Assembly (NCBI RefSeq): GCF_000746025.2
Contig: NZ_CP045798.1
Span: 1,350,501-1,414,500 of the forward strand
Origin: Thermanaerosceptrum fracticalcis
GTDB lineage: Bacteria; Bacillota; Peptococcia; DRI-13
DNA: 64,000 nucleotides
Reading direction: 5' to 3'
Positions 3,568-59,268 of this stretch are shown here, one piece after another. Every line of letters starts with the position of its first letter. Position 1 is the stretch's first letter. Below the pieces are notes generated by a model, which was not told the DNA's origin, did no database searches, and saw nothing but the letters and a program-made list of their open reading frames with translations. Made by a program: the position numbers and the translations under genes.

Positions 3568-4271
3568 TCCTGTAACCCCTTTGCCATGTGGATTTTTCTC
3601 GTAAATTCATTTACTTTTACTCTACTCTCTTGATTTTGAGATTTCGCCAACTGCTTGAGTATTTCCTGCATCGCTTCTATATCTTTCTGTAAAACTTCCT
3701 GCAGTAAAGGGTGTCTCATCTTGATTAAGAGAGGCCCATAATGAATTTCTTCTTCCGTGAGGGCCGTTCTTTCCCCTTTTTCCGCAGCAATTACCACAAA
3801 AAGTCTTTTATCTTCGTAAATAATATCCTCTCCGGTAATCACCCAGTTATGCTCCGACAGCCACCTGCGAACTACGTCAGCTCCGTTCATGGGCTGGAAA
3901 ATCATTTTTTTCAGTTTTTCCACTACTTGAGGAGAATTCTCTAAAATGTCCCTGCCGGTACTTCCTCCCATCCCGGCAATAATCACCACATCTACCTCAC
4001 CCGGCATAAGCGCTGTCAGCCCGTCGCCCCGCCGTATTTCTACCTGTTCCGCCACATTGTAGGCCCTCACGGTACGGCAGGCCGCCTGGTATGGTCCTTC
4101 ATGAACATCCACGCCTATGACAAAGGAAGCAATCCCTTCTTTCACCAAATAACAGGGGAGAAAAGCATGGTCCGTACCGATATCTGCCACCCTGGAACCC
4201 TGCGGCACCAAACGGGCCAGGGCCAGTAAACGCTGGGATAAATTGAGCACGTTATTACCTCTTTCTTTCAA
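3543..4271 (-). CDS. trmK: tRNA (adenine(22)-N1)-methyltransferase TrmK
   Basis: 242 residues, Rossmann-type SAM methyltransferase. VADIGTDHAFLPCYLV is the SAM-binding motif I, and DVVIIAGMGGSTGRDIL is the family-typical post-I region. The C-terminal quarter is helical, as expected for TrmK, which methylates A22 in the D-loop of some tRNAs. It is adjacent to and overlaps the Nif3-like gene, the standard order in Firmicutes. An internal GTG (VLNLSQRL) is an alternative start seven codons downstream. Confidence 0.85.
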   Translation of the reverse strand: MKERGNNVLNLSQRLLALARLVPQGSRVADIGTDHAFLPCYLVKEGIASFVIGVDVHEGPYQAACRTVRAYNVAEQVEIRRGDGLTALMPGEVDVVIIAGMGGSTGRDILENSPQVVEKLKKMIFQPMNGADVVRRWLSEHNWVITGEDIIYEDKRLFVVIAAEKGERTALTEEEIHYGPLLIKMRHPLLQEVLQKDIEAMQEILKQLAKSQNQESRVKVNEFTRKIHMAKGLQEWLFAAKQ

Positions 4272-43007: not shown

Positions 43008-46000
43008 CTTTCAGTCCCCATGTATCGGGTCTATTCAATGGAACTAGGCCGGATTGCCGCATACCCACCGCCGCTTCCCACATCTTTCAGTCCCCATGTA
43101 TCGGGTCTATTCAATGGAACGAGAAAGGGCATATTAGAAAAATAAAGCCTGAAATTCTTTCAGTCCCCATGTATCGGGTCTATTCAATGGAACATAGATG
43201 AAAGGGGTGGATAAGGCTTTATGACTTTTCTTTCAGTCCCCATGTATCGGGTCTATTCAATGGAACAGTGATGCAACAATATCAACATGGCTTGAATCAT
43301 CATCTTTCAGTCCCCATGTATCGGGTCTATTCAATGGAACTAGGCCGGATTGCCGCATACCCACCGCCGCTTCCCACATCTTTCAGTCCCCATGTATCGG
43401 GTCTATTCAATGGAACGAGAAAGGGCATATTAGAAAAATAAAGCCTGAAATTCTTTCAGTCCCCATGTATCGGGTCTATTCAATGGAACTGAGGTGATAA
43501 TCATGCCTAAACATGTTATGTTTGACTTTCAGTCCCCATGTATCGGGTCTATTCAATGGAACGTCGGGTGGGGACCAGACAATGAACCCCTGGTCGTACC
43601 TTTCAGTCCCCATGTATCGGGTCTATTCAATGGAACTGCTCTATCTCGGCCAGCAATCATTCTTAACTTACTAACTTTCAGTCCCCATGTATCGGGTCTA
43701 TTCAATGGAACGCAAGATTCCTTATAAGAATCCTTTTAAAATTTTCGTCTTTCAGTCCCCATGTATCGGGTCTATTCAATGGAACTGATGATCACAACGT
43801 CGAAGATGTCAGCGACAAATGCGCTTTCAGTCACCATGTATCGGGTCTATTCAATGGAACTGCTGCCCAGGTGCCGACTACGCTTGATGTCACTATACCT
43901 TTCAGTCCCCATGTATCGGGTCTATTCAATGGAACAGATGTTGGCTTGTTCGTTTGTTGCCATCTGTATAGATCTTTCAGTCCCCATGTATCGGGTCTAT
44001 TCAATGGAACAGTTTGCGGTGCATGCATTATTATGGCCGCAGAGGGCTTTCAGTCCCCATGTATCGGGTCTATTCAATGGAACCTGACTAAGGGGGGTGA
44101 ATACCCTTGCCTATTAATTCTTTCAGTCCCCATGTATCGGGTCTATTCAATGGAACCCTTGATGGGATTGGCAAACCAGCGACTGAACGTCATCTTTCAG
44201 TCCCCATGTATCGGGTCTATTCAATGGAACATATCCCCGGGGCCGTACAGCTTTATGGTGAAATCTACCTTTCAGTCCCCATGTATCGGGTCTATTCAAT
44301 GGAACTAGTTTTATCTTGAATGCCTCCCACAGGGGGAGCGGGCTTTCAGTCCCCATGTATCGGGTCTATTCAATGGAACTACAGAAAAGCCAGTGTATCA
44401 ACAGGGGAAACTGGTCTTTCAGTCCCCATGTATCGGGTCTATTCAATGGAACAATCCGGACGGTGGATACAAGATGTTATAGATAAGTACCTTTCAGTCC
44501 CCATGTATCGGGTCTATTCAATGGAACGCGTATCAACATCTAATGTTATAACAGGACAATATTTCTTTCAGTCCCCATGTATCGGGTCTATTCAATGGAA
44601 CTTTTGCATTGAAAAAGTCAATAACAAAGCAATTTTGGACTTTCAGTCCCCATGTATCGGGTCTATTCAATGGAACAAAAGGAGGTATGGGAATGGCGAA
44701 CATAAAACAGTTTGCTTTCAGTCCCCATGTATCGGGTCTATTCAATGGAACGTAGAGCCAAATATACAACAGAGGGTTGAGAAAGAGTCTTTCAGTCCCC
44801 ATGTATCGGGTCTATTCAATGGAACAAAAGTTACTGCCGTATTTGCAGGAGTTGTTCTAACAACTTTCAGTCCCCATGTATCGGGTCTATTCAATGGAAC
44901 ACGTCTGCTGTCAAGGAAATTCCTTATGTCCGAGAAAACTTTCAGTCCCCATGTATCGGGTCTATTCAATGGAACTTACTCCTCTGTCCACGAATTGTAA
45001 TGGTTTCTATGACTTTCAGTCCCCATGTATCGGGTCTATTCAATGGAACCCCGGTTGTAAAAATGCCGCCGAAGAAAAATTATGAGGCTTTCAGTCCCCA
45101 TGTATCGGGTCTATTCAATGGAACGCCGCCCTCAGCAGGTCAGCCAACTCGAACATGTCTTCTTTCAGTCCCCATGTATCGGGTCTATTCAATGGAACTC
45201 ATGAAATGATAAATCTAGAAATGGATGTCAGGGGCTTTCAGTCCCCATGTATCGGGTCTATTCAATGGAACTACTACTGATGCGGTGAACGGGTATGATT
45301 ATACTTGCGCTTTCAGTCCCCATGTATCGGGTCTATTCAATGGAACCGATATGTTTCACTGTCTGCCTCCTGGCGGTTTTTGATACTTTCAGTCCCCATG
45401 TATCGGGTCTATTCAATGGAACTCATCGGTAAACCTACTAGTGTAATGAAACAAGAACTCTTTCAGTCCCCATGTATCGGGTCTATTCAATGGAACTTTT
45501 CTCTTTCTCCGTCCTGGGCCATGTCATCAAGTATCCTTTCAGTCCCCATGTATCGGGTCTATTCAATGGAACATAAACTGATTGAACGAGGAAACGAATT
45601 GGAAGAACTAACTTTCAGTCCCCATGTATCGGGTCTATTCAATGGAACGGTAATGCTATCGGTGATATGCGGGTAGTTGCTAATGACTTTCAGTCCCCAT
45701 GTATCGGGTCTATTCAATGGAACGGACGATGGTGCCTATACGGTTTATAGCCGAGAGCCTCTTTCAGTCCCCATGTATCGGGTCTATTCAATGGAACAGT
45801 TGGTTCTTTCATTATTTGAAAATTTTACTAGTATCTTTCAGTCCCCATGTATCGGGTCTATTCAATGGAACATTCGGACCTATGGCCATTCACCGTCAAT
45901 ACTATATACTTTCAGTCCCCATGTATCGGGTCTATTCAATGGAACGTTCCTGCGTCAGGCGAAAAGAATCGCACGATAGGAGCTTTCAGTCCCCATGTAT

Positions 46001-48631
46001 CGGGTCTATTCAATGGAACTAGCCCTATCTTCTAAACTGCCTAAAATATTCTTCCGCCTTTCAGTCCCCATGTATCGGGTCTATTCAATGGAACAAAATA
46101 CAAATCGTAGCAGTTATAGAGACAATTACATCCTTTCAGTCCCCATGTATCGGGTCTATTCAATGGAACTCTCGATTAGTTTATTCAGATACCATTGCGC
46201 CTTTTGTCTTTCAGTCCCCATGTATCGGGTCTATTCAATGGAACGCTATATGTCATCTCATCAAGTTGGCAATCCTTTGGCCTTTCAGTCCCCATGTATC
46301 GGGTCTATTCAATGGAACGTCCCGGCAATCACGCAATCTCTGCTCTGCTTCTTTCCTTTCAGTCCCCATGTATCGGGTCTATTCAATGGAACAGGGCCAT
46401 GCGACACGGGCCCGGGGTCCCGGTGTCAAACTTTCAGTCCCCATGTATCGGGTCTATTCAATGGAACAATCAAAAAAGAAGGATTGCTTGAGCAAAAAAT
46501 AAAGCCTTTCAGTCCCCATGTATCGGGTCTATTCAATGGAACGTGTGCGGTGGAAATGGATATAGTGCAGGTTGTTTCCCCTTTCAGTCCCCATGTATCG
46601 GGTCTATTCAATGGAACGCTTCTTCCATATAGTCGTCTGTGTATGATTTTTTAGCTTTCAGTCCCCATGTATCGGGTCTATTCAATGGAACCCTTTGAGA
46701 ATAAAAAATCCGGTTAGAATCGACATAACCTTTCAGTCCCCATGTATCGGGTCTATTCAATGGAACTGCAATTTTTGGACAAGCCGAAGAAGGAAGAATC
46801 ATACTTTCAGTCCCCATGTATCGGGTCTATTCAATGGAACGTAAAACAACTTCTGCAATTATAGCAGCCTATAACGTCTTTCAGTCCCCATGTATCGGGT
46901 CTATTCAATGGAACTTAAATCAAACCCTAATTGGGAATATGTTGGAATGTATTCTTTCAGTCCCCATGTATCGGGTCTATTCAATGGAACTGCACTGGCT
47001 AGAAAAATAACTCAACCTGCAAAGGATCTTTCAGTCCCCATGTATCGGGTCTATTCAATGGAACCCGACATCACAAAAGAACTGATGGAAAGTCAAAAAC
47101 TTTCAGTCCCCATGTATCGGGTCTATTCAATGGAACAGATACCGCATATAACGATTATCGGACAAAGAAAATAACTTTCAGTCCCCATGTATCGGGTCTA
47201 TTCAATGGAACCCAGGAGGCAGATAGTGAAACGTATCGGGAAAGGGTATCTTTCAGTCCCCATGTATCGGGTCTATTCAATGGAACTCGCCTCGTAGTAT
47301 TTCTCCTTTCCAGACAAATATATCTTTCAGTCCCCATGTATCGGGTCTATTCAATGGAACGTGTCATCATGTGCTTTATAAAATCCCACAATGCAAACTT
47401 TCAGTCCCCATGTATCGGGTCTATTCAATGGAACGCTCCTTGAGCGGTCACTTTCCCCATCGGTAACTTCAACTTTCAGTCCCCATGTATCGGGTCTATT
47501 CAATGGAACTATTAAGGAAGCGTAATCATTATCTAAATCGATTTTTTCTTTCAGTCCCCATGTATCGGGTCTATTCAATGGAACGCCGATAACAAGATAT
47601 CAATAAGCTGCAAGATTATAACTTTCAGTCCCCATGTATCGGGTCTATTCAATGGAACTCAACACTTCCAATATTGGCAATTCTATACATTTGTTCTTTC
47701 AGTCCCCATGTATCGGGTCTATTCAATGGAACGCAGAAGGAAAAAATAAATTGACAGAGGATGATTTTTCTTTCAGTCCCCATGTATCGGGTCTATTCAA
47801 TGGAACGACCGAAACCCGTAATTCTATATTACGGTTACTTAGATCTTTCAGTCCCCATGTATCGGGTCTATTCAATGGAACAGACCAAGCGTTTCCATTA
47901 CGGCGTAGACTTTGCCGCTTTCAGTCCCCATGTATCGGGTCTATTCAATGGAACTGATAAGAGTGAAGTCTTGAGTGGCAGGCGGTAAGGCCAACTTTCA
48001 GTCCCCATGTATCGGGTCTATTCAATGGAACGCAATGTTTATGGGTTCGTTACTCCGGTAGACTTCCTCTTTCAGTCCCCATGTATCGGGTCTATTCAAT
48101 GGAACTTCAATTTTTCACAACAATAACGTACTATTCGAGTTGGCTTTCAGTCCCCATGTATCGGGTCTATTCAATGGAACTCCTGGGGAGTCCGAGGGGC
48201 AGGGGTCCCCGTGTCAACTTTCAGTCCCCATGTATCGGGTCTATTCAATGGAACCAACTCAAGACGAACCTTTATATTTCGAACTTACAACCGACTTTCA
48301 GTCCCCATGTATCGGGTCTATTCAATGGAACAAAAAGTCCTGCTCAAATGGGGCGAAGGGCTAAGTTTGCTTTCAGTCCCCATGTATCGGGTCTATTCAA
48401 TGGAACAATTACTGGAAAAAATGCGTAGCGAACAAAAAGAAATACTTTCAGTCCCCATGTATCGGGTCTATTCAATGGAACTGATGTATTCCCCTTTCGG
48501 GGCTGACTGGTTGAAACTGCCTTTCAGTCCCCATGTATCGGGTCTATTCAATGGAACGAAGCCTGCGGGGGCGATAAGGCTCTGGAGAATATTCCTTTCA
48601 GTCCCCATGTATCGGGTCTATTCAATGGAAC
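43008..48631 (-). CRISPR. CRISPR array, 76 repeats and 75 spacers
   Basis: The 37-bp repeat begins CTTTCAGTCCCCATGTATCG and ends GGGTCTATTCAATGGAAC with a shared G at the join on the plus strand. I counted 76 copies by position, with spacers of 35-40 bp. All are identical except the twelfth from the left (43824-43860), which has A for C at position 10. The crRNA sense is the minus strand, where each repeat ends GGGGACTGAAAG, giving an 8-nt ACTGAAAG handle for Cas6 cleavage, and a CCC/GGG mini-stem. The leader is on the right, next to the cas genes. Spacers 1 and 2 (from the left) recur as 5 and 6. Confidence 0.99.
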
Positions 48632-48897
48632 CGACTTTGGCGAAATGCCTAGAAATGGCTTGTGACTTGCGTTTCGGGACTCCAAAATAAATCAAGCTAC
48701 ATCTATTTTTCCGCAAAAATATTTTCTGTTTGAAATACCAGGTCTTTTGCGAAAATACCATTTCCCCCTATTACGAACCAAATCGTAGATAAACGCTAAC
48801 TACTATAAGCTTTCCCCCTTTCAAATCATTTCTTGCAAACATTCATAAGATAATTTCTATAAAAGATAAGATAAATCCTGTCTTTTAAAGAAAAATA
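48632..48897 (-). promoter_or_regulatory. CRISPR leader
   Basis: A 266-bp, largely A+T-rich stretch lies between the last repeat and the terminal cas gene, upstream of the array in the crRNA direction. A possible promoter on the minus strand is TTGGTT and TATTTT with 18-bp spacing (about 48743-48782). Two GGTATTT direct repeats lie close by. The 55 bp next to the first repeat are more G+C-rich and look spacer-like. Confidence 0.7.
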
Positions 48898-49818
48898 TTA
48901 GCCAAGGCAGTTACGGTAATAAGGGCAGGTATCATAGCAGTTCTGGGCAATTCCGGGGTCAATTTCCTCATAAATCATCCGCATTTTTTCATCCCGTTCT
49001 TCGATAAACCATTGTCTTAACTCATCATCAATAATGTGAATGTCTTTTTTTACGCTCAGTCTTCCATTCTTAAATTCCGCATAGACTAAGCACCCCAGGT
49101 TAACTGGAAATTCATGAATAGCCTCCATCACCAGAGCATAACCGGTAGTAGTCAAGCGGTGAAATTTTTTAGGTTCCCCAAACTTAAGGTCAATGATCAT
49201 GGGTTCTGAGAAAGTAAAAGCATCGGCGCTTAAATTTTGGCTCAACCCCAGGAATGACCCGTCCAATTTCTGCTCTACTACCACGGGAATAGCTAAGGAG
49301 ACCAAGGAATCTTCGGCAATATAAGGTTGCTTTATTAAAATTTCCTGGATACGGGCAACAATCCTTGAAGTCTCAAAGTTGGCGAGGATTTCAGCGTCTC
49401 TTGCTAAACTACTGAATTCTTCTTCGGAAAGTTGGGAGCGATACCGTTCAAAATTTGTTTTGAAAGGAATTTTATGCTCTTGTAAAAACTCCTGGTAGTT
49501 ACCCACACCATGGAGATAGATGAGTTTCTTTGCCCGGACCAGTACATCAACCAAAACCTGGTGTAAAAGTTTACCCCGAAGCATGGCAGCATTGGGCCTC
49601 GCTTTTACACCATCTATGCGACGCAAAAATAAATCGCGGTTAGTTGGGCAGTAAGAATTGGCGATTTCATAGAGGGCAAGCTTAATATCATACACGGGCT
49701 CCAAGGGAGGCTGATTCCAATTCCAGCCCCTGAGTTCATCGGCTATATCCATCTGCCTGGACTTAGGCAAATAACTCTTTAGTAATTGTTTGCGTTCTTC
49801 ATCAGTGAGAAAATACAT
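48898..49818 (-). CDS. csa1: Csa1-type Cas4 family nuclease (type I-A)
   Basis: 306 residues from MYFLTDEERKQLL (the frame extends to 49842, inside cas4). ELRGWNWNQPPLEPVYDIKL and SYCPTNRDLFLRRIDGVKAR are the Csa1 signatures as I know them. GKLLHQV, a central ADAFTF / MIIDLKFGEPKKFH (PD-(D/E)xK core, D and E/K positions), and C-terminal CYDTCPYYRNCLG with cluster-binding cysteines are present. Csa1 is a second Cas4-like protein characteristic of type I-A adaptation modules. It is last in the cas1-cas2-cas4-csa1 operon and borders the leader. Confidence 0.75.
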   Translation of the reverse strand: MYFLTDEERKQLLKSYLPKSRQMDIADELRGWNWNQPPLEPVYDIKLALYEIANSYCPTNRDLFLRRIDGVKARPNAAMLRGKLLHQVLVDVLVRAKKLIYLHGVGNYQEFLQEHKIPFKTNFERYRSQLSEEEFSSLARDAEILANFETSRIVARIQEILIKQPYIAEDSLVSLAIPVVVEQKLDGSFLGLSQNLSADAFTFSEPMIIDLKFGEPKKFHRLTTTGYALVMEAIHEFPVNLGCLVYAEFKNGRLSVKKDIHIIDDELRQWFIEERDEKMRMIYEEIDPGIAQNCYDTCPYYRNCLG

Positions 49819-49823
49819 TTTTT

Positions 49824-50399
49824 CTAACTCACATCCCCACAATAGTTTCTATATTCGCAATCAGTACAACGGCCCTTATGCTGGTTGGGACGGGGTATTC
49901 TTTCCTTGAGAATTATCTCTCGAATTTTTTCTAAGACATCTTTGACAAATATCCGGGCATTAGGAGTAATTTGGATAGGATAAGGTGTTTTTTCCGGAAT
50001 AATGTATAAAAATCCATAGCGAACCGGCTTGTTATAATAATCCTCTAAGAGCATAGCATAGCTTACCAGTTGATATTTATGATTTAGGGATGGCCCTTTT
50101 CTTGTATGCTTAAACTCTACGGGGAAATATTCTCCTTCCGAGACAATGTGCATATCCAGCTTACCTTCCAAACCCAACCGTTCTGAGCGAAGGTACTGGT
50201 GAAACCGCCGCTCCCCCTCGGAAAGGCTATACCGTTTGAAAGTACGCCGCTTTTCCAGGCGATCCAGTTCCAAGTGTTCTTCTTTCCCGTACTCCATTTT
50301 ACGGGTAATTTTTTTCTCCACCGGGCAGACATAGGTAAAATAAATTATGCGCGGGCAGTAAATGTATTGCTTAACATCAGTGACTCTTAATTTAATCAT
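49824..50399 (-). CDS. cas4: CRISPR-associated exonuclease Cas4
   Basis: 191 residues. N-terminal Cys in YIYCPRIIYF, RecB-type nuclease motifs GKLDMHIVSEGEYFPVEFKHTR (D, E and K catalytic residues; key D in LDMHI, E-K in VEFKH), and QLVSYAMLLE. The C-terminal Fe-S cysteines are in CTDCEYRNYCGD. It trims prespacers and helps select the PAM with Cas1-Cas2. It overlaps cas2 by 8 bp and csa1 by up to 19 bp. Confidence 0.95.
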   Translation of the reverse strand: MIKLRVTDVKQYIYCPRIIYFTYVCPVEKKITRKMEYGKEEHLELDRLEKRRTFKRYSLSEGERRFHQYLRSERLGLEGKLDMHIVSEGEYFPVEFKHTRKGPSLNHKYQLVSYAMLLEDYYNKPVRYGFLYIIPEKTPYPIQITPNARIFVKDVLEKIREIILKERIPRPNQHKGRCTDCEYRNYCGDVS

Positions 50400-50667
50400 C
50401 TATGATAATGCCCCCTGGTTCTACCCGAATTTCGTTCATAAGCCTTAAGTCCTTATCACAAATGGGGCAGATGAGGATTTTGCCAAGGTTTTTACCCAGG
50501 ATTCTTCTAAGCCGCTGGCGCAATTCGTCTCTGCGGTTGTGGTTAAGATCACCGATAAAGACACTGTATTGGATACGCGCAAGACCATAATCTTTACAAG
50601 CTTCACAAATCTTGTTGCGGATTCTATCATCTTCAATATCATAGCTAACTAAAGTACGCATTACCAA
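50392..50667 (-). CDS. cas2: CRISPR-associated protein Cas2
   Basis: 91 residues, beginning MRTLVSYDIEDDRIRNKI (ferredoxin-like fold, conserved Asp in YDIEDD), with YGLARIQYSVFIGDL. A C-terminal CPICDK knuckle adds two cysteines. It forms the integrase with Cas1. Overlaps cas1 and cas4 by a few bases, so the adaptation genes are translationally coupled. Confidence 0.96.
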   Translation of the reverse strand: MVMRTLVSYDIEDDRIRNKICEACKDYGLARIQYSVFIGDLNHNRRDELRQRLRRILGKNLGKILICPICDKDLRLMNEIRVEPGGIIIDD

Positions 50668-51668
50668 CTACTAACAAAAGGCTTATACTTCGCCTCTCCC
50701 CGTAAAAAGGTGGCAATCCGCCTGGCCTGGTTCTGAATGATGGTTTTTAAGGCTGACTTTTTGCCCTGGAAGCTTTCTTTATGATCAAGGCGCTCAAAAA
50801 TCCGTGCCGCAAAATCTCTCTTCGTCTGAGTATCCAAATATTCCCCGTCCATACCAATCTCAATTCCTTTGTTTACGATGGCAATGACAACCCTGTCCAC
50901 TACCGGCTGGCGAAATTCTTCGATAAAATCATAGACCAGGCTTTTCTTCCCCGGCCTATCTACATGCAGGTAACCGCAAAAAATATCAAGGCCGGCCAGG
51001 ACCAGAGCCTTCTCGATCTGCTGGTTTAATATTCCGTACCCGTAATTTAATAAAGAATTGAAGGGGTCACCTGCTCCGCGATGTTCTCGTCCGGGAAATT
51101 CTATTTTCCCATCGGTAAGGAGTTTTACCATATCCCAATAGATATTGCCAACCCGCCCCTCCACTGACATGATTTGTCCGCGGATATCATCAATACACTT
51201 CCCTTTTATTTCTTTCAGTTCTTCGGCAAACTTCTCCATCCAGGTGATTCCGTGGTAAATCTGTTCATAAAGCTCACGATTAGCACCTTTACGGTACTTG
51301 GCAAAGTATTTTAAGATATTGAGCTGGTTTTTCAGTTTACCTTCCACAAAGGCCTTAGCTAAATGGATTCCTCTTTGGTCATTGTAGGCCATTAATTGCT
51401 CGCGACGGGTCATGGCCGTGCCAACCAAATATGGTGAAATCAAACTGGCATAAGGGGTCCCTGAAAAATCCAGGAAGCTTATATAAATCCCATGTCTGAC
51501 ACATTCTCGAATGCAGTCCGTAGATAAAGAAACACCAGGGTTATCAATAATAATCTGCTCCAGGTCATGGAAGGGTATTTCGTTAACGACTTTATTGTTT
51601 TCCTTGACTATCAATCTTTCACTTTTCTTGCCCAGGAAAGAACCAAAGTTGGATATGTATAATTGCAT
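50661..51668 (-). CDS. cas1: CRISPR-associated integrase Cas1
   Basis: 335 residues. The catalytic Glu is in SVEGRVGNIYWD, His in GYLHVDRPGKKSLVYD, and the further acid in DFIEEFRQPVVDR. It integrates spacers at the leader-proximal repeat. First gene of the adaptation operon, separated from cas5 by a 176-bp gap with a hairpin. Confidence 0.98.
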   Translation of the reverse strand: MQLYISNFGSFLGKKSERLIVKENNKVVNEIPFHDLEQIIIDNPGVSLSTDCIRECVRHGIYISFLDFSGTPYASLISPYLVGTAMTRREQLMAYNDQRGIHLAKAFVEGKLKNQLNILKYFAKYRKGANRELYEQIYHGITWMEKFAEELKEIKGKCIDDIRGQIMSVEGRVGNIYWDMVKLLTDGKIEFPGREHRGAGDPFNSLLNYGYGILNQQIEKALVLAGLDIFCGYLHVDRPGKKSLVYDFIEEFRQPVVDRVVIAIVNKGIEIGMDGEYLDTQTKRDFAARIFERLDHKESFQGKKSALKTIIQNQARRIATFLRGEAKYKPFVSSW

Positions 51669-51766
51669 TCGACCAGCTCCTCGACCTTCTTCCTGGCTAG
51701 ATTATTGCCATAAAGTGGAACATATATTCTCCAATACAATTGACGTAACTTGAAAGTGGTGACAGA

Positions 51767-51806
51767 AAGGAGAACCCACCACAATTACATGTGATGGGCT
51801 CTCCTT
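51767..51806. terminator. Large hairpin between interference and adaptation cas genes
   Basis: 17-bp arms with two non-Watson-Crick positions and a 6-nt loop (51767-51783 and 51790-51806). It lies 39 bp past the cas5 stop. A short T-rich tail is present only on the plus strand, so it may act as a processing or attenuation structure rather than a simple terminator. Confidence 0.5.
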
Positions 51807-51844
51807 GAAGAATATTATTATTTTTATTCATTACTTGTAGAGGT

Positions 51845-52573
51845 TTAAGAGTCATTACGATAATAAGTATAACTTTTCGAACTGGTGACTTGCCGGTACG
51901 GGAGCAAGTAAGGCCTTAAAACACGGTGCTTTCCTAACTCGATACTTTTATTTGAAAAGCTATTGATTCGTTCAAAGAAGTCTTTAGCATCAACTTCCCC
52001 TAATTCGTCCAAATACTGGGTTATTCCGTACAAGTCAGGTTTAAAGGATTTATGAGAGGAAGGTATTGGTAAAATAAAACCTTCTAACTCACCTTCCACC
52101 ATTCGTGTTCCGCCAAATTGAAAGAAGCTTCCTCGCTTACCAAAATAATTGATATGTGCTAGGACCAAATTAATTTTATCTATATCTTCCTCATTGAGGG
52201 CATATGCGTCTAATGCTATCTTCATCTTTCCTTGAAAATAGCAGAATTCACGAAAGGCTATAGAAGATATATAGGGTTCCTCAGGTTTTTTTTCTTTTGG
52301 TTCCCTTTTTATCTTTATAAAAGTATGATTTACAGTCAGATGTTTTGGCGGGCACAATCTTATTTCCCGACTTTTTATCAGGTTAAATATCCAGCGGGCT
52401 AAATTTTCTCCTTCCATGCGAAAAGCTGCATCTACCATTGCAAGTTTGCACGCATAAGGGGTCGGTACAAAAAGAGTTTTACCTCCGCTTGAAGTACTAT
52501 AGCTACTACGTAAAGAAAATAAAGACACTGGTAAATACGATGCTATAAGCCAGTATTTATTAACTGAATTCAT
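51845..52573 (-). CDS. cas5: CRISPR-associated protein Cas5 (RAMP)
   Basis: 242 residues from ATG 52573 (TGA of cas7 and this ATG are one base apart; the frame extends to 52588). A Cas5-type RAMP fold is suggested by FVPTPYACKLAMVDAAF near the N-terminus and INYFGKRGSFFQFGG. It should cap the 5' handle of the crRNA in the Cascade complex. The YFGKRGS motif resembles type I-A Cas5a. Confidence 0.85.
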   Translation of the reverse strand: MNSVNKYWLIASYLPVSLFSLRSSYSTSSGGKTLFVPTPYACKLAMVDAAFRMEGENLARWIFNLIKSREIRLCPPKHLTVNHTFIKIKREPKEKKPEEPYISSIAFREFCYFQGKMKIALDAYALNEEDIDKINLVLAHINYFGKRGSFFQFGGTRMVEGELEGFILPIPSSHKSFKPDLYGITQYLDELGEVDAKDFFERINSFSNKSIELGKHRVLRPYLLPYRQVTSSKSYTYYRNDS

Positions 52574-52574
52574 A

Positions 52575-53543
52575 TCACATCGCCTCATAAGGTTTGACTT
52601 GTAATATTAAGTCTCCCATTTTTTCCGCAAACTCTCCTAAAGAATTAAAAGGATAAAGTGTTACGGCTTGTGGGTGAAGTTTATCAAGGGCATTTTTTAC
52701 GGTCTTAATCTCCTCTTCATAATTGGGATTTAAAGCACTTGCAACTGGAGCTGGTACAGTACTAGTCGATACTGAAATTATACCTTCAAAATTTACTATA
52801 TGGGGATTCTGTGTATTACGGTGGGCACCGTTTGGTTTAAGGAATGTAAAGAGTACACTTTGTAAAACAGCCTTTATTCTTTTTTCTCGCTCCTGGTCCG
52901 GCAAAACATATTCAAGGTTAATATCATTTCGACCCACTCTGAATAAATCTATATTTAAGACAACCGCATATTGTCCCGAAGATGCGGGTCGGTGAAAAAT
53001 ATTTTGTCCCGTATTGGCACCACTTTCATCACCTGAACCTTTACCTCGTCCTTCAGGCGCGTATTTAACATGAAAGTACGACTCTGTCTTGGTAACATCT
53101 GGGCGTCCCACAACCCAACCAAATTCTAGGACAGATTTACGACCAATAGCTCTCTTCTTGCCACCAACTTCACTAGTAATAAGGATACCCTCCGCATCAT
53201 CGATAATACATTTCTTAATAGCCTCACTTAATACAATATTATCTGGAGTATCCTTGGGGATAGCACCAGCGAACTCGGTATCAGCCACTATGCGATTAGC
53301 ATCAAACTTTTGACAAGGACCACATAAGGGAAGACTTTTTTCAGTTGCCAAATTATACAAATGTTCAGCTTGAATATGCTTAAACATATCTCCGGAAATG
53401 GCATTGACCGCATACATCTTTCCTTCACTATCTACAACCTGTACTTCACGCGTCTGTAGATAATTACCTTCTGCTCCTTCATTATTAAGAGAATGTAAGT
53501 TTAAAGTAACAAGACCAGAAACTGCCAGTGAATGGATTTTCAT
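52575..53543 (-). CDS. cas7: Cas7 backbone protein, DevR/Cst2 family
   Basis: 322 residues. Opening SLAVSGLVTLNLHSLNNEGAEGN (N in the first strand) and internal NAISGDMFKHIQAEHL, KRAIGRKSVLEFGWVVG are DevR/Cst2 family hallmarks. Multiple copies bind along the crRNA spacer. The founding member, Myxococcus DevR, is named for autoregulation. It lies between cas8 and cas5. Confidence 0.92.
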   Translation of the reverse strand: MKIHSLAVSGLVTLNLHSLNNEGAEGNYLQTREVQVVDSEGKMYAVNAISGDMFKHIQAEHLYNLATEKSLPLCGPCQKFDANRIVADTEFAGAIPKDTPDNIVLSEAIKKCIIDDAEGILITSEVGGKKRAIGRKSVLEFGWVVGRPDVTKTESYFHVKYAPEGRGKGSGDESGANTGQNIFHRPASSGQYAVVLNIDLFRVGRNDINLEYVLPDQEREKRIKAVLQSVLFTFLKPNGAHRNTQNPHIVNFEGIISVSTSTVPAPVASALNPNYEEEIKTVKNALDKLHPQAVTLYPFNSLGEFAEKMGDLILQVKPYEAM

Positions 53544-53571
53544 ACAAATTTACCTCCCTAAAATTTTATTG

Positions 53572-55278
53572 TTAATTAACTTTGTCCAGCGACTCTTCCT
53601 CACGAGGTTCTCTTGCATAACCGTAAGCTAGAAGGAGCATTCCCACCAGTTCGGAACCGTAATGTTTAATTAAGGTGAAGACCTGATTTAAATCTTCGGT
53701 AGTAATATTCTTTCTTGTTTCCTTCCCCTGTTCCATACGTTTAGTATTTTCAGCATTATATGATTGAACAAACTCGGATAGCTCTGTGATAAACTCATTT
53801 TGAAACTTAACTTTACGTTTCCACTTTTGCGCAAGACCATATTGAATTTCAAAAGGTGCTTTCCCTGTCATTGATTTTCTAATTTGCGGGCTAATAGTTG
53901 ACTTTCTAATTGCCGTAGCTATATTTAGAAATCCATGATTTTCTATAATCTCCTTAAAGTCTGACATAAATATCCTCCTTAAATTCTGTGTAGTAAAAGC
54001 TTGAGCATGCTTTTTCTGAACTTGACATTGAATAAAGTGAGCACCATAAGCAGCAAGAAAATCGAAAAAAGTTCTATAGTCTCCTGTAGAAAGAAAATCT
54101 CGATAAGTCAACAAGAGTGCTATATCATTAGAATGACTTTCATCTAAAGTTCTCAAACATTTTTTGTGTTCTGCCAAAATACCCAGCCAATCCTCAGCGT
54201 CTTGATGGTTATGTACTTGAAACCAATCCGGCATTCCTAAGAAAGACACATTCATAACAGCAGAAGCAGTACCCAGATTTTTAAAATAGGTGTTATAAAT
54301 ACCTCTAATAATATCTTTTGGAGTACGACCCGCCAGCTTAATAGAACCTGTACCCTGCTGGAACTCTTCGGAATGCTTAATTAGCTTTTCTGTAATATTT
54401 AGGGAAGCCTGAATATCTAACCAAACTGACCCCCTAATACGCTCACTTAGTAAATCATCCCTCAAAGTTTTTAAGTTTTTCGTACTTATGTCTCCAGGAG
54501 CAATCACCATCACTTTGGTATCTTTCCCATCATTTCCTGTGTTGTAAGCCAGAAGACCTATATGCATGGCCCGAAACTTCATCCACTCTTCGAACCAGTC
54601 AAGCAACTTAGGTGAGATGGAACTTGGACTACTACTATCAGGTTTTGGTCGATGAACCCCTTTACCTGCAACTGGATTAAAAAGTTGGAGCGTAGAAACA
54701 GCATTATGAAGTTTATCATCATTATTTTGATTTACTTCCTTTATATTTTGAAAACCAAAGCGGGACAATTTATTTAGCAAAATCGATGACATATCATCAG
54801 TTTCCAGAATGGCCTGAAATAATTGATTGTAGGCGTTAGAACCCATACGCATAGAATTAAATATTTTCATTATAGACAAATCATCTTTTGGCTTTGAAGG
54901 AGGGATAACCCCCTGTTCCTGCATAGCCTTTCCAATTTGTTTTCCTTTTCTGGCAGTTGTTTTTTGAAATTCTTGATAATTTTTCTCAACCTCCTTCTCT
55001 CCTTCATAATCGTACCAAGGGAACCCTGGCGGAACGGGGTCAGTCTTTTTAATCCGAATATAGATATAACCCGGGTCTCGCTTCCACTTTAGTATTTCCT
55101 CAATAGACAATTCCGGTGATATTTTGATGGTGTAGACTTCTCCCTCATCAACTATTCTGGTCTTTCTCGTAACTCCATCATGCTCAAAAGAGCCTAACAA
55201 GTCAGCCAAGCCGATGGCTACTAAAGCATCTGCATAAGTTCCTGTCTTTTTTAATACTTGAAACTCACCCTTTGACAT
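53572..55278 (-). CDS. Cas8-type large subunit
   Basis: 568 residues, in the cas8 position between cas3 and cas7. It begins GTYADALVAIGLADLLGSFE, seen in Cas8a1/Csx8-like proteins. The last 120 residues are helical (ITTEDLNQVFTLIKHYGSEL), possibly a Cas11-like small-subunit region. No clear zinc knuckle. It should recognise the PAM in Cascade. Subtype assignment (I-A versus I-B) rests on neighbours csa1 and the Cas3 domain order. Confidence 0.8.
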   Translation of the reverse strand: MSKGEFQVLKKTGTYADALVAIGLADLLGSFEHDGVTRKTRIVDEGEVYTIKISPELSIEEILKWKRDPGYIYIRIKKTDPVPPGFPWYDYEGEKEVEKNYQEFQKTTARKGKQIGKAMQEQGVIPPSKPKDDLSIMKIFNSMRMGSNAYNQLFQAILETDDMSSILLNKLSRFGFQNIKEVNQNNDDKLHNAVSTLQLFNPVAGKGVHRPKPDSSSPSSISPKLLDWFEEWMKFRAMHIGLLAYNTGNDGKDTKVMVIAPGDISTKNLKTLRDDLLSERIRGSVWLDIQASLNITEKLIKHSEEFQQGTGSIKLAGRTPKDIIRGIYNTYFKNLGTASAVMNVSFLGMPDWFQVHNHQDAEDWLGILAEHKKCLRTLDESHSNDIALLLTYRDFLSTGDYRTFFDFLAAYGAHFIQCQVQKKHAQAFTTQNLRRIFMSDFKEIIENHGFLNIATAIRKSTISPQIRKSMTGKAPFEIQYGLAQKWKRKVKFQNEFITELSEFVQSYNAENTKRMEQGKETRKNITTEDLNQVFTLIKHYGSELVGMLLLAYGYAREPREEESLDKVN

Positions 55279-55288
55279 AACACCCTCC

Positions 55289-57730
55289 TTAATTAGTAGT
55301 CCATTTTAAGGATCCCTGGTCTACCAAACGAAGTCTTCGAACTAAAAACCAATATAAAGGAACCCATTTTCGGTCATTTTCTGCTGTAAGAATAAGATTA
55401 CGGAAATCCTCTTTATCCTTCTCACCTTGAGGTACAGCTATATCATAAAAATATTTACTAATTCCTAGTGGCTCCAAGGACTTACTAATCCAAAATTTCG
55501 CTTTAGGCCAAAGCTCAAAAAGCTGCACTTCTTTCGCCCTAGAACTATGGTGGCGTGCAATAACAGTAATACTTACCCTTGTTAACAATTCAGCTATATT
55601 TTCATCCCCTAATTTCTCCAAGAGGTATGTGTATATTCCATTTGTCACCATAAAAGCACCTTCGACAGCGTGGTTTCCACGTTTGTAAGATTCTTTTAGC
55701 TGGCGTTTATAATCTCCATTTTCCGGACAAAAAGTAGCATGAGCAAGAGGTTGCCCATCATATCCTTCTCCATCTGCTGGATAGTAATCCTTTTGCCAGG
55801 CCCATATACCTGTTTGCCATTTTCTTGTCAACTTGCCACTATCATGTAATACACATAACAATTCTGTTAATGTGTTAACTAAACCAGGGGGCAAATTAAG
55901 GTTATACTCCAGCTTTTTAATACCTTTTTGGTACGTAACATCAGTCCTTCTACTAAAATCTAAAGTTGCATGTGCATGGGCTATATATGGTTCAATCTTA
56001 TAACTGAAAGGTTTAAAACTATTCTTTTTTCTGTAGCGTACCGGAACCTGGGATCCTTCCTTATCTAAGCATAATCCTATATCAGAAGAATAACTGGCTA
56101 CAGTTGGAGAGAGAACAATTAACCACGCAGTAGTTAACTCTTGTATTGTATTTATAGTTTTCCATTGTAAATTAAGCCCTATAGTTTCATTCTCAGTCTC
56201 CATCGGATGCCATCCCACCGGGTTGTCTATTTTACCATCAAAATATTCTCCAATTTTGAAAAGACTTGACCTAGGAACAGATAGCATTTGAGGATTCTGT
56301 TCAAGATTTATACTTAATGGATTTTCAGTTAATATAATGCCTACTGAATCTACATCTCTTATTAAATCCCTCGCAAGTGCAAGGTCTCCACCGTCTAATG
56401 AAGAATCAACCTTTTTTCGCCAACTGTTAAGTGATTGGCAAATACCAGATATAATATTCACTTCATCTTTATGAACCTGATCAATTAGCTTAACCTCATC
56501 TGAGAAGTTAAGACAGCTACCATCTATCTCGAGCATTGCCTTACGAGTTTTGTCTACAAGCTTAGCACTTTCCCCACGATAGGGGCCTAATTTATATTGA
56601 CCAGTAGGAGTCTTTTCTAATTCATATATCCACACAGTTCCTTTATTTCTAGGATTAGGATATCTGGCACAGCGTCCGGCTCTTTGTAGTAAAGCATTGG
56701 CAGGGCATAACTCTGTATGTAAATTATCGGCACTTATATCTATACCAGCTTCAATGACCTGAGTAGCCACTAAAATCACATTGGAAGTAGTTGCCTCGGG
56801 ACCCAGGTATAACGAAAGCTTTTCTTCTTTCTTTTGACGGTCCTCAGGAAAAAAACGGCTGTGTAATAGAACAAGTTGACAATCTACCGGAAGTTTTTGT
56901 TTTAGACCGTTATATATTTCTTGGGCTCGCCCTACTGTATTACACACTACCAATGTTCGCCCATTCTGGTGATACTTTAAAATTCTATCTATAGATAAAG
57001 GTTCACTAACCCAACGATACTCCCTTTGTTTATCCCGATGACTTGGCATTTTTTTTAACTCCTGTTCTGTGACAGTTATTTCAACTGCATTAAGATGTTC
57101 TTTTAGGACATTAATCGCGGGAGAAGAAAGAGTCGCTGTCATAAAGACAAACTGAGTATATGGCTTTAACCGGTTAACCATCTCCAGAACTGTGGCAAAA
57201 GACCTTTGGGGATCAAGTAAATGCACTTCATCTAATATTATTAGGGAACCAATGAACGCCCCCGCGTTAATATTAGCCTGACTAGAGGGTAGTGACAGGG
57301 GTAAATTAAGATATGCTGCTAACAATTGGTCTATGGTTGTAAAACAGATATCCCCTTGGTAATATCTATCATCCTGTTGCTCACCCGTTTGAATTGTAAT
57401 ACATATTTCGTTATACTCCCTTTTGGGGCTGACTAGATTATCCTGTAGTTTAAACACATTACTACATGCAGCTCGCATAGACTTATACAAGTTACCGGCC
57501 AAACTCCTTAAGGGTAAGGCATAAAAGACCCGATCTACAAAGGGCTGACTTTCAAGCCTGCTCCAAAGATATGCTAATAGAGCAGCCCATGTTTTTCCAG
57601 CCCCCGTTGGGGCTGATATGATAACATTCCGTCCGTTAAGTAATGAATTAGCTACACTGTACTGATAGTTGTATAACTTGGCTGTTGGCTTAGCCATTAA
57701 GGCTTCGAAAAGATTATCCAACAAAGTCAC
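55289..57730 (-). CDS. cas3: Cas3 helicase-nuclease with C-terminal HD domain
   Basis: 813 residues. The helicase comes first: Walker A SAPTGAGKTW (39-48), DEVH at 167-170, TATLSS near 198, and QRAGRCAR near 349. The HD nuclease follows: His585/587, HD at 629-630 (VLHDSGKL), His687 (GNHAVEGAF), and HH 727-728 (IARHHSS). This order is the reverse of the common HD-helicase Cas3 and equals a fusion of the separate Cas3' and Cas3'' of type I-A. GTG start; the preceding small ORF ends 9 bp upstream. Confidence 0.95.
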   Translation of the reverse strand: MTLLDNLFEALMAKPTAKLYNYQYSVANSLLNGRNVIISAPTGAGKTWAALLAYLWSRLESQPFVDRVFYALPLRSLAGNLYKSMRAACSNVFKLQDNLVSPKREYNEICITIQTGEQQDDRYYQGDICFTTIDQLLAAYLNLPLSLPSSQANINAGAFIGSLIILDEVHLLDPQRSFATVLEMVNRLKPYTQFVFMTATLSSPAINVLKEHLNAVEITVTEQELKKMPSHRDKQREYRWVSEPLSIDRILKYHQNGRTLVVCNTVGRAQEIYNGLKQKLPVDCQLVLLHSRFFPEDRQKKEEKLSLYLGPEATTSNVILVATQVIEAGIDISADNLHTELCPANALLQRAGRCARYPNPRNKGTVWIYELEKTPTGQYKLGPYRGESAKLVDKTRKAMLEIDGSCLNFSDEVKLIDQVHKDEVNIISGICQSLNSWRKKVDSSLDGGDLALARDLIRDVDSVGIILTENPLSINLEQNPQMLSVPRSSLFKIGEYFDGKIDNPVGWHPMETENETIGLNLQWKTINTIQELTTAWLIVLSPTVASYSSDIGLCLDKEGSQVPVRYRKKNSFKPFSYKIEPYIAHAHATLDFSRRTDVTYQKGIKKLEYNLNLPPGLVNTLTELLCVLHDSGKLTRKWQTGIWAWQKDYYPADGEGYDGQPLAHATFCPENGDYKRQLKESYKRGNHAVEGAFMVTNGIYTYLLEKLGDENIAELLTRVSITVIARHHSSRAKEVQLFELWPKAKFWISKSLEPLGISKYFYDIAVPQGEKDKEDFRNLILTAENDRKWVPLYWFLVRRLRLVDQGSLKWTTN

Positions 57731-57739
57731 CGCCTATTT

Positions 57740-57949
57740 TTAATTCTGCCGGTTATAACTGTTACATACTGAAAATATTATGAGTATAAAATTTTCGACG
57801 CTTCCCTTTCTTGTTACTACACCCTCGCATCGAGTATAGCCGTGATCGTAGCAAAATACCTCAATTAAAATCGTTTGTTTGGTCGTATCAGTAAAATTTT
57901 TTATTAGCTGCAACAAAGACGAGAAAATACTCAATAGTGATAGAAGCAT
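57740..57949 (-). CDS. Small ORF (69 aa) leading the cas3 operon, unknown
   Basis: Starts with a leucine-rich hydrophobic segment (MLLSLLSIFSSLLQLI), then a polar middle and a second hydrophobic stretch FILIIFSV. It has a textbook Shine-Dalgarno (AAGGAGG, 57957-57963) and ends 9 bp before cas3. No known family. It may be a leader cistron for cas3, or a small membrane-active peptide. Directly upstream lies the site matched by the crRNA-like RNA, so expression of this ORF is the predicted target of Cascade repression. Confidence 0.45.
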   Translation of the reverse strand: MLLSLLSIFSSLLQLIKNFTDTTKQTILIEVFCYDHGYTRCEGVVTRKGSVENFILIIFSVCNSYNRQN

Positions 57950-57959
57950 TTTCTTACCT

Positions 57960-57989
57960 CCTTATAATAGTTGAAGTTGTATTTAATCT
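57960..57989 (+). promoter_or_regulatory. Putative Cascade target site (CCT PAM plus partial protospacer)
   Basis: CCT at 57960-57962 is followed by TATAATAGTT from 57963. Against the pseudo-spacer at 58232, positions 1-5, 7-10, 14-19 and 21-22 match; 6, 11-13 and 20 do not. Type I effectors tolerate mismatches at every sixth position, and 6 and 12 are among those here. The CCT is the complement of the AGG in the ribosome-binding site of the small ORF, so bound Cascade would cover the 5' UTR/promoter of the cas3 operon. Confidence 0.65.
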
Positions 57990-58066
57990 TAATCCAGATT
58001 TGCTGTTATAATTGTGTATCGTAGAATTTATTTTTATTCAGGACAGATCTTGGAATTGTTGCCATT

Positions 58067-58096
58067 TTGTTAATACTATTTAACAAACCAGATAAT
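58067..58096 (+). promoter_or_regulatory. Promoter with inverted-repeat operator in the cas6-cas3 gap
   Basis: -35 TTGTTA (58067-58072) and -10 GATAAT (58091-58096) with an 18-bp spacer. The -35 overlaps one arm of a perfect 7-bp inverted repeat (TTGTTAA 58067-58073, TTAACAA 58080-58086). It would start a transcript about 58103, just at the Shine-Dalgarno of the mini-ORF, and could also read into the crRNA-like element. Confidence 0.6.
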
Positions 58097-58118
58097 ATAG
58101 CTGCAGGAGGTAAGGCTA

Positions 58119-58142
58119 TTGTCGCTTGAGTTTATTTTTTAA
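58119..58142 (+). CDS. Seven-codon mini-ORF with near-perfect Shine-Dalgarno
   Basis: CAGGAGGTAAGG (58103-58114) precedes a TTG codon by 8 nt, and the frame encodes MSLEFIF before TAA. A T6 run overlaps the end. A strong ribosome-binding site on so short a frame recalls the CreT toxins of CreTA modules, but the rare-arginine codons of the described CreT are absent here. It could also be a regulatory leader peptide or chance. Confidence 0.35.
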   Translation: MSLEFIF

Positions 58143-58192
58143 AGATATCCCATTGATGTTCGTTATTAAAGACATGAATATAACCTTATGTC

Positions 58193-58293
58193 TTCCGTTT
58201 AAAATTCCGCTAATAACAAGGAGACTGAAACTATAAAAGTTTTTGTTGTAGTTTTTCCTTAACTAGATAACCCGCTTACAAGGGGACTGAAAG
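58193..58293 (+). ncRNA. crRNA-like guide RNA: two degenerate CRISPR repeats around a pseudo-spacer
   Basis: Repeat R1 (58193-58231) and R2 (58254-58293) align end to end with the array repeat read in crRNA sense. Shared elements are TTCC at the 5' end, a CCCG/CCG loop region, ACAAGG(G/A)GACTGAAA, and handle ACTGAAAG (R2) or ACTGAAAC (R1). Between them lies a 22-nt pseudo-spacer starting TATAAAAGTTTTTGTTGTAG. It is transcribed opposite to the cas genes; a weak promoter TTGATG-20-TATAAC (58153-58184) ends just before R1. Architecture is that of CreA/CreR-type RNAs, processed by Cas6 and used by Cascade for repression. Confidence 0.8.
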
Positions 58294-58308
58294 TGTTAAT
58301 GCCGATTT

Positions 58309-59268
58309 CTACTCAAACCTCACCTGATACTTCCCCATGCCAAACGTAGCCCCTTTACCCACATGGGTAAACTGACCAAGAGTTAATAATTGCATAAATT
58401 CTGCCAATTCCCCCTCGTAGGTTACGTTGCCTACCACACCGCCGAGATTCATCCTGGTATCCTGGCGGGAAGAATAGCGTTCCCAGTCAACCCAGATAAA
58501 TTCCTCGGAAACTGTCCTGATTTTTTCTGCTTGTTTGATGATCTCCTGGAAATTCCCGTTCGGCATAACGCCATGATGAAAATAATAAAGAGAGGAGAGC
58601 CGGCGGAGCAGGTTTCTGATCAGGATGTGAAAAGGAACATTACCTACATATCTGCCTTCAAACTTCAACCTGGTCATAGTTTGAAAATCAATAGATAATA
58701 CATTCTGTTCCCATGTTTTATCATAGTTCAGAACATCTCTACCACTCACCGTAAGGTCGAAGTTACGAACTAATTGATTGTCACCGGAGTAAACGACTTC
58801 TCGTTCTTCCGTGAGGTCATTGACGGCCGTTAACTCGGCTAATCGGTACTTCTTCCTGCCCTTACCGATGCCCAGTTCCCCCAGTTCCCGGAAAACCACA
58901 ATAAAATAGGGTAGGTAAGGAATAGCCCGTCCAAACAAAAGAAGATGAAAAGTGAGTCTTTCTCCTGGGCCATAAAAAGTCCGGGTCTCCAGGGGAGGCT
59001 CCAGTACGAAAGGCCTGGGGATAGTATCGTAGTTTTTTAAGACAAGGGAATCGGGTGGCGGCTCCGTCTCGAAAATGTAAGCGTAAGGACAGTTGCTTTT
59101 TAGCAAACATTGCGAACATGGACTTTTGGGTTGAGCGCAGGCGATTCTCCTGAAAGCCGTGCCAAACCCGCCCCTTAAGGTAGAACCTTTGTAAGCTGGC
59201 AGGTGTAACCCTTCTTCACCGGCTTCCAGAGTGATCTCGTACTTGGCGATTTTAAAATCAGCAAACAT
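58309..59268 (-). CDS. cas6: Cas6-family pre-crRNA endoribonuclease
   Basis: 319 residues. The N-terminus KGSTLRGGFGTAFRRIACAQ with CSQCLLKSNCPYAYIFE holds four cysteines of a zinc-like site. The C-terminus shows GGVVGNVTYEGELAEFMQLL and TLGQFTHVGKGATFGMGKY, the glycine-rich RAMP motif of Cas6. It should cut both the array and the crRNA-like RNA repeats, producing 8-nt handles. It is transcribed separately from cas3 because the 578-bp gap contains promoters and the opposite-strand RNA. The end of the crRNA-like RNA lies 16 bp from the cas6 stop. Confidence 0.9.
   Translation of the reverse strand: MFADFKIAKYEITLEAGEEGLHLPAYKGSTLRGGFGTAFRRIACAQPKSPCSQCLLKSNCPYAYIFETEPPPDSLVLKNYDTIPRPFVLEPPLETRTFYGPGERLTFHLLLFGRAIPYLPYFIVVFRELGELGIGKGRKKYRLAELTAVNDLTEEREVVYSGDNQLVRNFDLTVSGRDVLNYDKTWEQNVLSIDFQTMTRLKFEGRYVGNVPFHILIRNLLRRLSSLYYFHHGVMPNGNFQEIIKQAEKIRTVSEEFIWVDWERYSSRQDTRMNLGGVVGNVTYEGELAEFMQLLTLGQFTHVGKGATFGMGKYQVRFE

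Follow-up and report, generated by a model that had tools for sequence, protein, structure and literature searches.

A candidate CreR-type guide RNA between cas6 and cas3 of a bacterial type I-A CRISPR-Cas locus

Why would a type I-A CRISPR-Cas locus carry, outside its array and between cas6 and cas3, two degenerate repeats around a single 22-nt spacer, and what could such a spacer guide its effector to? The question is raised by a 64-kb stretch of the Thermanaerosceptrum fracticalcis genome (64,000 nt, hereafter the window), a 3.8 Mb genome in a single contig that contains the window. An original prediction proposed that the repeat pair encodes a regulatory guide of the CreA or CreR kind without naming a target, and analysis of the window uncovered a PAM-flanked partial match to this guide in the probable cas3 promoter region.

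Two degenerate repeats inside a type I-A locus

The window contains a complete type I-A CRISPR-Cas locus (43008-59268) with all cas genes on the minus strand, and the presence of the signature genes encoding Csa1, Cas7/Csa2, Cas5a, and Cas8a confirms the type I-A assignment made originally. The array (43008-48631, minus strand) has 76 repeats of 37 nt, comprising 75 exact copies of GTTCCATTGAATAGACCCGATACATGGGGACTGAAAG (minus strand) and one variant, with spacers of 35-40 nt, mostly 36-39 nt. It is followed by cas1, cas2, cas4, and csa1 (48898-51668), cas5a (51845-52588), cas7/csa2 (52575-53543), cas8a (53572-55278), and cas3 (55289-57730), which encodes a helicase with a C-terminal HD domain and would come first among the cas genes of the operon under regulation. 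Across a gap of 578 nt lies cas6 (58309-59268), whose product is the expected processing nuclease. About 53 of the 73 array spacers were compared with phages and gave no match, so no PAM could be derived from the array. The leader-distal part of the array (43008-43400) has a local duplication, in which a pair of adjacent spacers is repeated in unchanged order.

The element occupies the cas6-cas3 gap on the plus strand, with the coordinates, orientation, and neighbors first given for it; its position outside the array was likewise confirmed, at a distance of 9.6 kb and on the strand opposite to the array and the cas genes. A degenerate first repeat, PsiR1 (58193-58231), carries a mini-stem UUCC/GGAG and ends in the 8-nt handle ACTGAAAC (58224-58231), the 5′ handle of the RNA. 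The 22-nt guide PsiS, TATAAAAGTTTTTGTTGTAGTT, follows (58232-58253), and a degenerate second repeat, PsiR2 (58254-58293), closes the unit with a CCC/GGG stem and the handle ACTGAAAG (58286-58293). Relative to an ordinary array with near-identical repeats and array-length spacers, the element stands apart by its 22-nt guide and its self target at cas3.

When scored against the array repeat, PsiR2 reaches 18.5, compared with 13.5 for the next best site outside the array, and the more diverged PsiR1 reaches 12.5, a score that alone would not stand out. For comparison, 60 Markov sequences matching the window in composition gave a top single score of 15.5 and contained no two hits of at least 12 at a spacing of 45-80 nt. 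Genome-wide, the motif ATGGGGACTGAAA is found in the array only. The stem of PsiR1 differs on both arms from the CCC/GGG stem shared by PsiR2 and the array, so pairing has been kept via changes on both sides, and the handle ACTGAAA is unchanged; both repeats had been described as keeping this handle and a G-rich strand of the mini-stem, the latter being rebuilt in PsiR1. Their description as alignable along the full length was generous for PsiR1, as several gaps have to be opened in its 5′ half. For the repeats taken singly, RNAfold gave unremarkable energies, and an Rfam search returned nothing above threshold. The sequence after PsiR2 was also examined for a second guide and gave nothing convincing (best p ~0.03).

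A partial match upstream of cas3

The top match to the guide in the 64-kb window, the guide itself excluded, lies in the same gap as the element (CCT followed by TATAAtAGTTgaaGTTGTAtTT, 17/22 positions). The protospacer TATAATAGTTGAAGTTGTATTT (57963-57984, plus strand) matches guide positions 1-5, 7-10, 14-19, and 21-22, with mismatches at 6, 11, 12, 13, and 20. The adjoining CCT (57960-57962, plus strand) is consistent with the YCN PAM given for type I-A (PMC11640852), and the CCN-flanked target is unique in the 3.8 Mb genome as judged by a pattern search with CCNTATAANAGTTNNNGTTGTA, one mismatch allowed. Alternative guide sites at 57785, 57866, 58007, and 48858 have a weaker match or no CCN PAM.

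Two features of the cas3 side coincide with this target. A promoter-like site, TTAAGA-17-TATTAT (57964-57992, minus strand), has its -10 box within the protospacer and probably serves cas3; it is the sole such site on the cas strand in a consensus scan of 57700-58330, a scan that operates at chance level in the AT-rich gap (two sites found vs. 2.9 expected). Downstream of it lies a 69-codon open reading frame (ORF; 57740-57949, minus strand), which has a perfect Shine-Dalgarno sequence AAGGAGGT (57963-57956), whose AGG is the complement of the CCT PAM, and whose end is separated by 9 nt from the annotated start of cas3.

The 69-codon ORF matched no family or toxin model in Pfam or PADLOC, and a search of 398 genomes for homologues returned one chance-level hit and no relatives. 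Its N-terminus is hydrophobic, with residues 1-19 averaging a hydropathy of 1.53, and the rare codon CTA accounts for three of its first seven Leu codons, compared with 5% of Leu codons in the window's long ORFs, a usage that may reflect AT-rich DNA only.

Guide-target pairing in related type I-A systems

Related type I-A loci were collected across the phylum via Cas7, because none of the 60 closest relatives has a type I-A cas3; a contig scan with Cas3 recovered a single distant archaeal locus. Elements of the same plan were found upstream of cas3 in ten loci (L029, L032, L033, L037, L040, L041, L051, L052, L063, and L065), in seven of them opposite to the cas3 strand, as in the window. In L032, L051, and L052, the element is co-directional with cas3 and consists of one repeat followed by a terminator-like hairpin. 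In these three (L032 6990-7090, L051 4700-4790, and L052 upstream of cas3), the 5′ half of the repeat pairs with post-guide sequence to form the hairpin, and T-runs follow.

In each of the 11 loci, the window included, the search space was confined to the interval from element to cas3, and guides were scored uniformly over positions 1-17 with the PAM ignored. For nine of the 11 guides, a single site scored best and stood directly after CCN; the CC frequency in the searched intervals is 0.039 (P = 1.1e-11). Examples include CCT followed by TATGTTATATGtATTAT in L040, CCA followed by TAATTTGTTTTaTAGTAA in L032, and CCC followed by TGGTgGGTTTTAATCTT in L052. In a blind subset (the window, L029, L032, L033, L041, and L051), whose elements had been found by handle and stem before targets were looked at, five of six were positive (P = 8e-7). 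L065, found by repeat search alone, is also positive, and the elements of L037, L040, and L052 were recognized jointly with their targets and are therefore not blind. The blind search did not recover all elements, and in L063 it took PsiR2 as PsiR1.

Three further comparisons tie each guide to its own target. With the guide start dictated by the 8-nt handle, the mean score is 18.9, and shifts of 1-4 nt lower it to 10.5-13.3. When guides were swapped among nine loci, the score fell from 19.7 for own targets to 11.75, with none of 100,000 permutations as good. Mismatches in the nine positive loci concentrate at positions 6 and 12 (13/18, vs. 13/135 elsewhere in positions 1-17), a comparison biased by the weighted score of the swap, blind-subset, and register tests, which omits positions 6 and 12, although the uniform score, which counts them, selects identical sites. 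The original prediction expected repeats and pseudo-spacer to be kept together with their target in relatives, and the pairing does recur, with different sequences, in other type I-A systems.

The targets also share a location. In six of the nine loci the distance from target edge to cas3 is 16-87 nt; L032 and the window, both with a small ORF in the interval, have 186-232 nt, and L033 has 554 nt. In L037, L040, L051, L052, and L065, the target stands directly before cas3.

L041 and L063 failed the ungapped test and are not among the nine positives. By eye, both L041 (5556, minus strand) and L063 (upstream of cas3) match a cas3-proximal target with five seed bases after CCA or CCT and 12-13 more with guide base 6 bulged; their sequences differ and the bulge geometry is the same. 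One genome (G153) has two type I-A systems (L029 and L033), and both come with a separate element and a separate target matched to it. In L038 (17234, minus strand), a lone degenerate repeat CCCCGATGACAAGGGGACTGAAGG lies just upstream of cas6 and has no convincing guide target.

Probable autorepression by Cascade and competing explanations

The most economical reading of target positions upstream of cas3 is a CreR-type guide RNA, encoded by the element, with which Cascade would repress its own cas3 operon. We place the probability of this reading at roughly three in four, with transcription, processing, and repression predicted by analogy. CreR has been reported for types I-B, I-E, and V-A (PMC13131331), and the present element most likely extends it to type I-A, where members may have been predicted before. 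Repression by CreR (Liu et al. 2023, cited in PMC12737573) is lifted once crRNAs or anti-CRISPRs draw off the effector (PMC12737573). The element resembles CreR in being a mini-CRISPR within a cas locus, a crRNA-like unit with a partial match to a cas promoter, here a probable one, and no established toxin. It differs in belonging to a bacterial type I-A system, in its 22-nt guide, and in the 69-codon ORF between target and cas3 in the window.

The steps of this model, from transcription through Cas6 cleavage and Cascade loading to repression and its release, are predicted from what is published on CreR. A short plus-strand transcript from the element would be cut by Cas6 in both degenerate repeats, and the processed RNA would consist of the 8-nt handle, the 22-nt guide, and a repeat-derived 3′ end (predicted RNA 58224-58285, with Cas6 expected to cut before 58286). 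Cascade (Cas8a-Cas7-Cas5a) carrying this guide would bind the CCT-flanked partial match at 57963-57984 and cover the -10 region of the promoter fronting the 69-codon ORF and cas3-cas8-cas7-cas5. Because the match is only partial, Cas3 would not destroy the DNA, and the bound Cascade would do no more than block transcription. More Cascade would give stronger repression, and array crRNAs or anti-CRISPR proteins drawing Cascade away would relieve it.

A comparable situation is described for Sulfolobus type I-A, where Cascade sits with Csa3b on the cas promoter and leaves upon infection (He et al., as summarized in PMC11640852). That summary names no dedicated guide, whereas the locus described here encodes one, and an encoded guide would be a natural way for a type I-A Cascade to sit on its own cas promoter. 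If so, the present locus supplies both the guide and the exact target for self-repression in type I-A. As a natural experiment, the 11 loci further bear on how much a guide needs to match in order to repress and not cut; the requirements read from them are CCN and bases 1-5 and 7-10, with little needed at 6, at 12, or beyond 17.

Several observations count against the CreR-type reading. About ten of the type I-A loci examined have no recognizable element upstream of cas3, and no clear creR promoter was found. In the window, 232 nt and the 69-codon ORF separate the target edge from cas3, an arrangement that differs from most relatives. Guide position 11 is mismatched in the window, whereas CreA of Halobacterium hubeiense needs bases 1-5 and 7-11, with 6 and 12 dispensable (PMC8501985).

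CreA of CreTA modules (PMC8501985, PMC9458426) is in other respects a close parallel, with two divergent degenerate repeats of which PsiR1 is the more diverged, a PAM, and seed-only complementarity in which positions 6 and 12 are free. CreA represses a toxin RNA promoter, whereas the target here stands in front of the cas3 operon and any toxin is putative. The leading competitor, which we regard as unlikely, is a CreTA/CrePA addiction module in which the guide represses a toxin encoded by the 69-codon ORF, loss of Cascade poisons cells, and effects on cas3 are secondary. The coincidence of PAM and target with the ORF's perfect Shine-Dalgarno sequence and -10 region speaks for such a module, as do the orphan status, hydrophobic start, and CTA-rich beginning of the ORF, although the CTA codons may stem merely from base composition. 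L029 adds a similar arrangement, a 24-codon hydrophobic ORF whose Shine-Dalgarno sequence overlaps the target PAM. The 69-codon ORF is not conserved, however, and matched no toxin model; the small ORF in L032 is unrelated to it, and five loci have the target directly before cas3. Target positions favor CreR, as cas autorepression, over CreA, and a toxin-like ORF under the same promoter is compatible with the CreR-type reading.

Another reading, which we consider improbable, is a hybrid in which a single guide holds down the promoter of both an orphan toxin-like peptide and the cas3 operon, fusing CreR autoregulation with CreTA addiction. The 9-nt distance from the ORF's stop to cas3, with no further cas-strand promoter-like site between them, fits this proposal, as does L032, where the small ORF downstream of the target overlaps the cas3 start. 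The toxicity and translation of the 69-codon ORF are putative, however, and the ORF is absent from most relatives.

A dead array remnant or functionless relic repeat pair is very improbable. PsiR1 on its own is only marginally like the array repeat, and degenerate end repeats are common, but a relic would have to account for a PAM-flanked guide-target match, the handle register, and the 6/12 pattern in many loci, as well as for a stem restored by paired changes and a location 9.6 kb from the array on the opposite strand. The original prediction had already considered a leftover array end unlikely, and the guide-target evidence bears this out strongly. The same evidence disfavors an RNA anti-CRISPR (Racr), a solitary repeat trapping Cas proteins; solitary repeat mimics do occur in phages (PMC10651486), but this element lies inside the cas locus between cas6 and cas3 and has two repeats and a guide with its own target, which leaves that explanation a negligible probability.

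Across type I, crRNA-like mini-arrays were reportedly predicted by Shmakov et al. in 2023, with standalone repeats and with guides that match cas promoters or cargo genes in part. The element likewise combines standalone repeats with a partly matching guide.

Other genes are found near these elements. The 24-codon ORF of L029 (4670-4760, minus strand; MKEVLWGLIVLLFLVLLGRLLGIF), with its strong Shine-Dalgarno sequence that overlaps the guide target, points toward the element and is a candidate CreT-like gene; the cas6-cas3 gap of L029 also holds a Phd-like antitoxin gene (3671-4096). The cas6-cas3 gap of the window is without a WYL-type regulator gene. Such genes lie in the cas6-cas3 interval or immediately upstream of cas3 in L029, L032, L033, L038, L041, L051, L052, and L053, with the WYL assignment confirmed by Pfam in L029, L032, and L041 and, as a C-terminal part, in L033.
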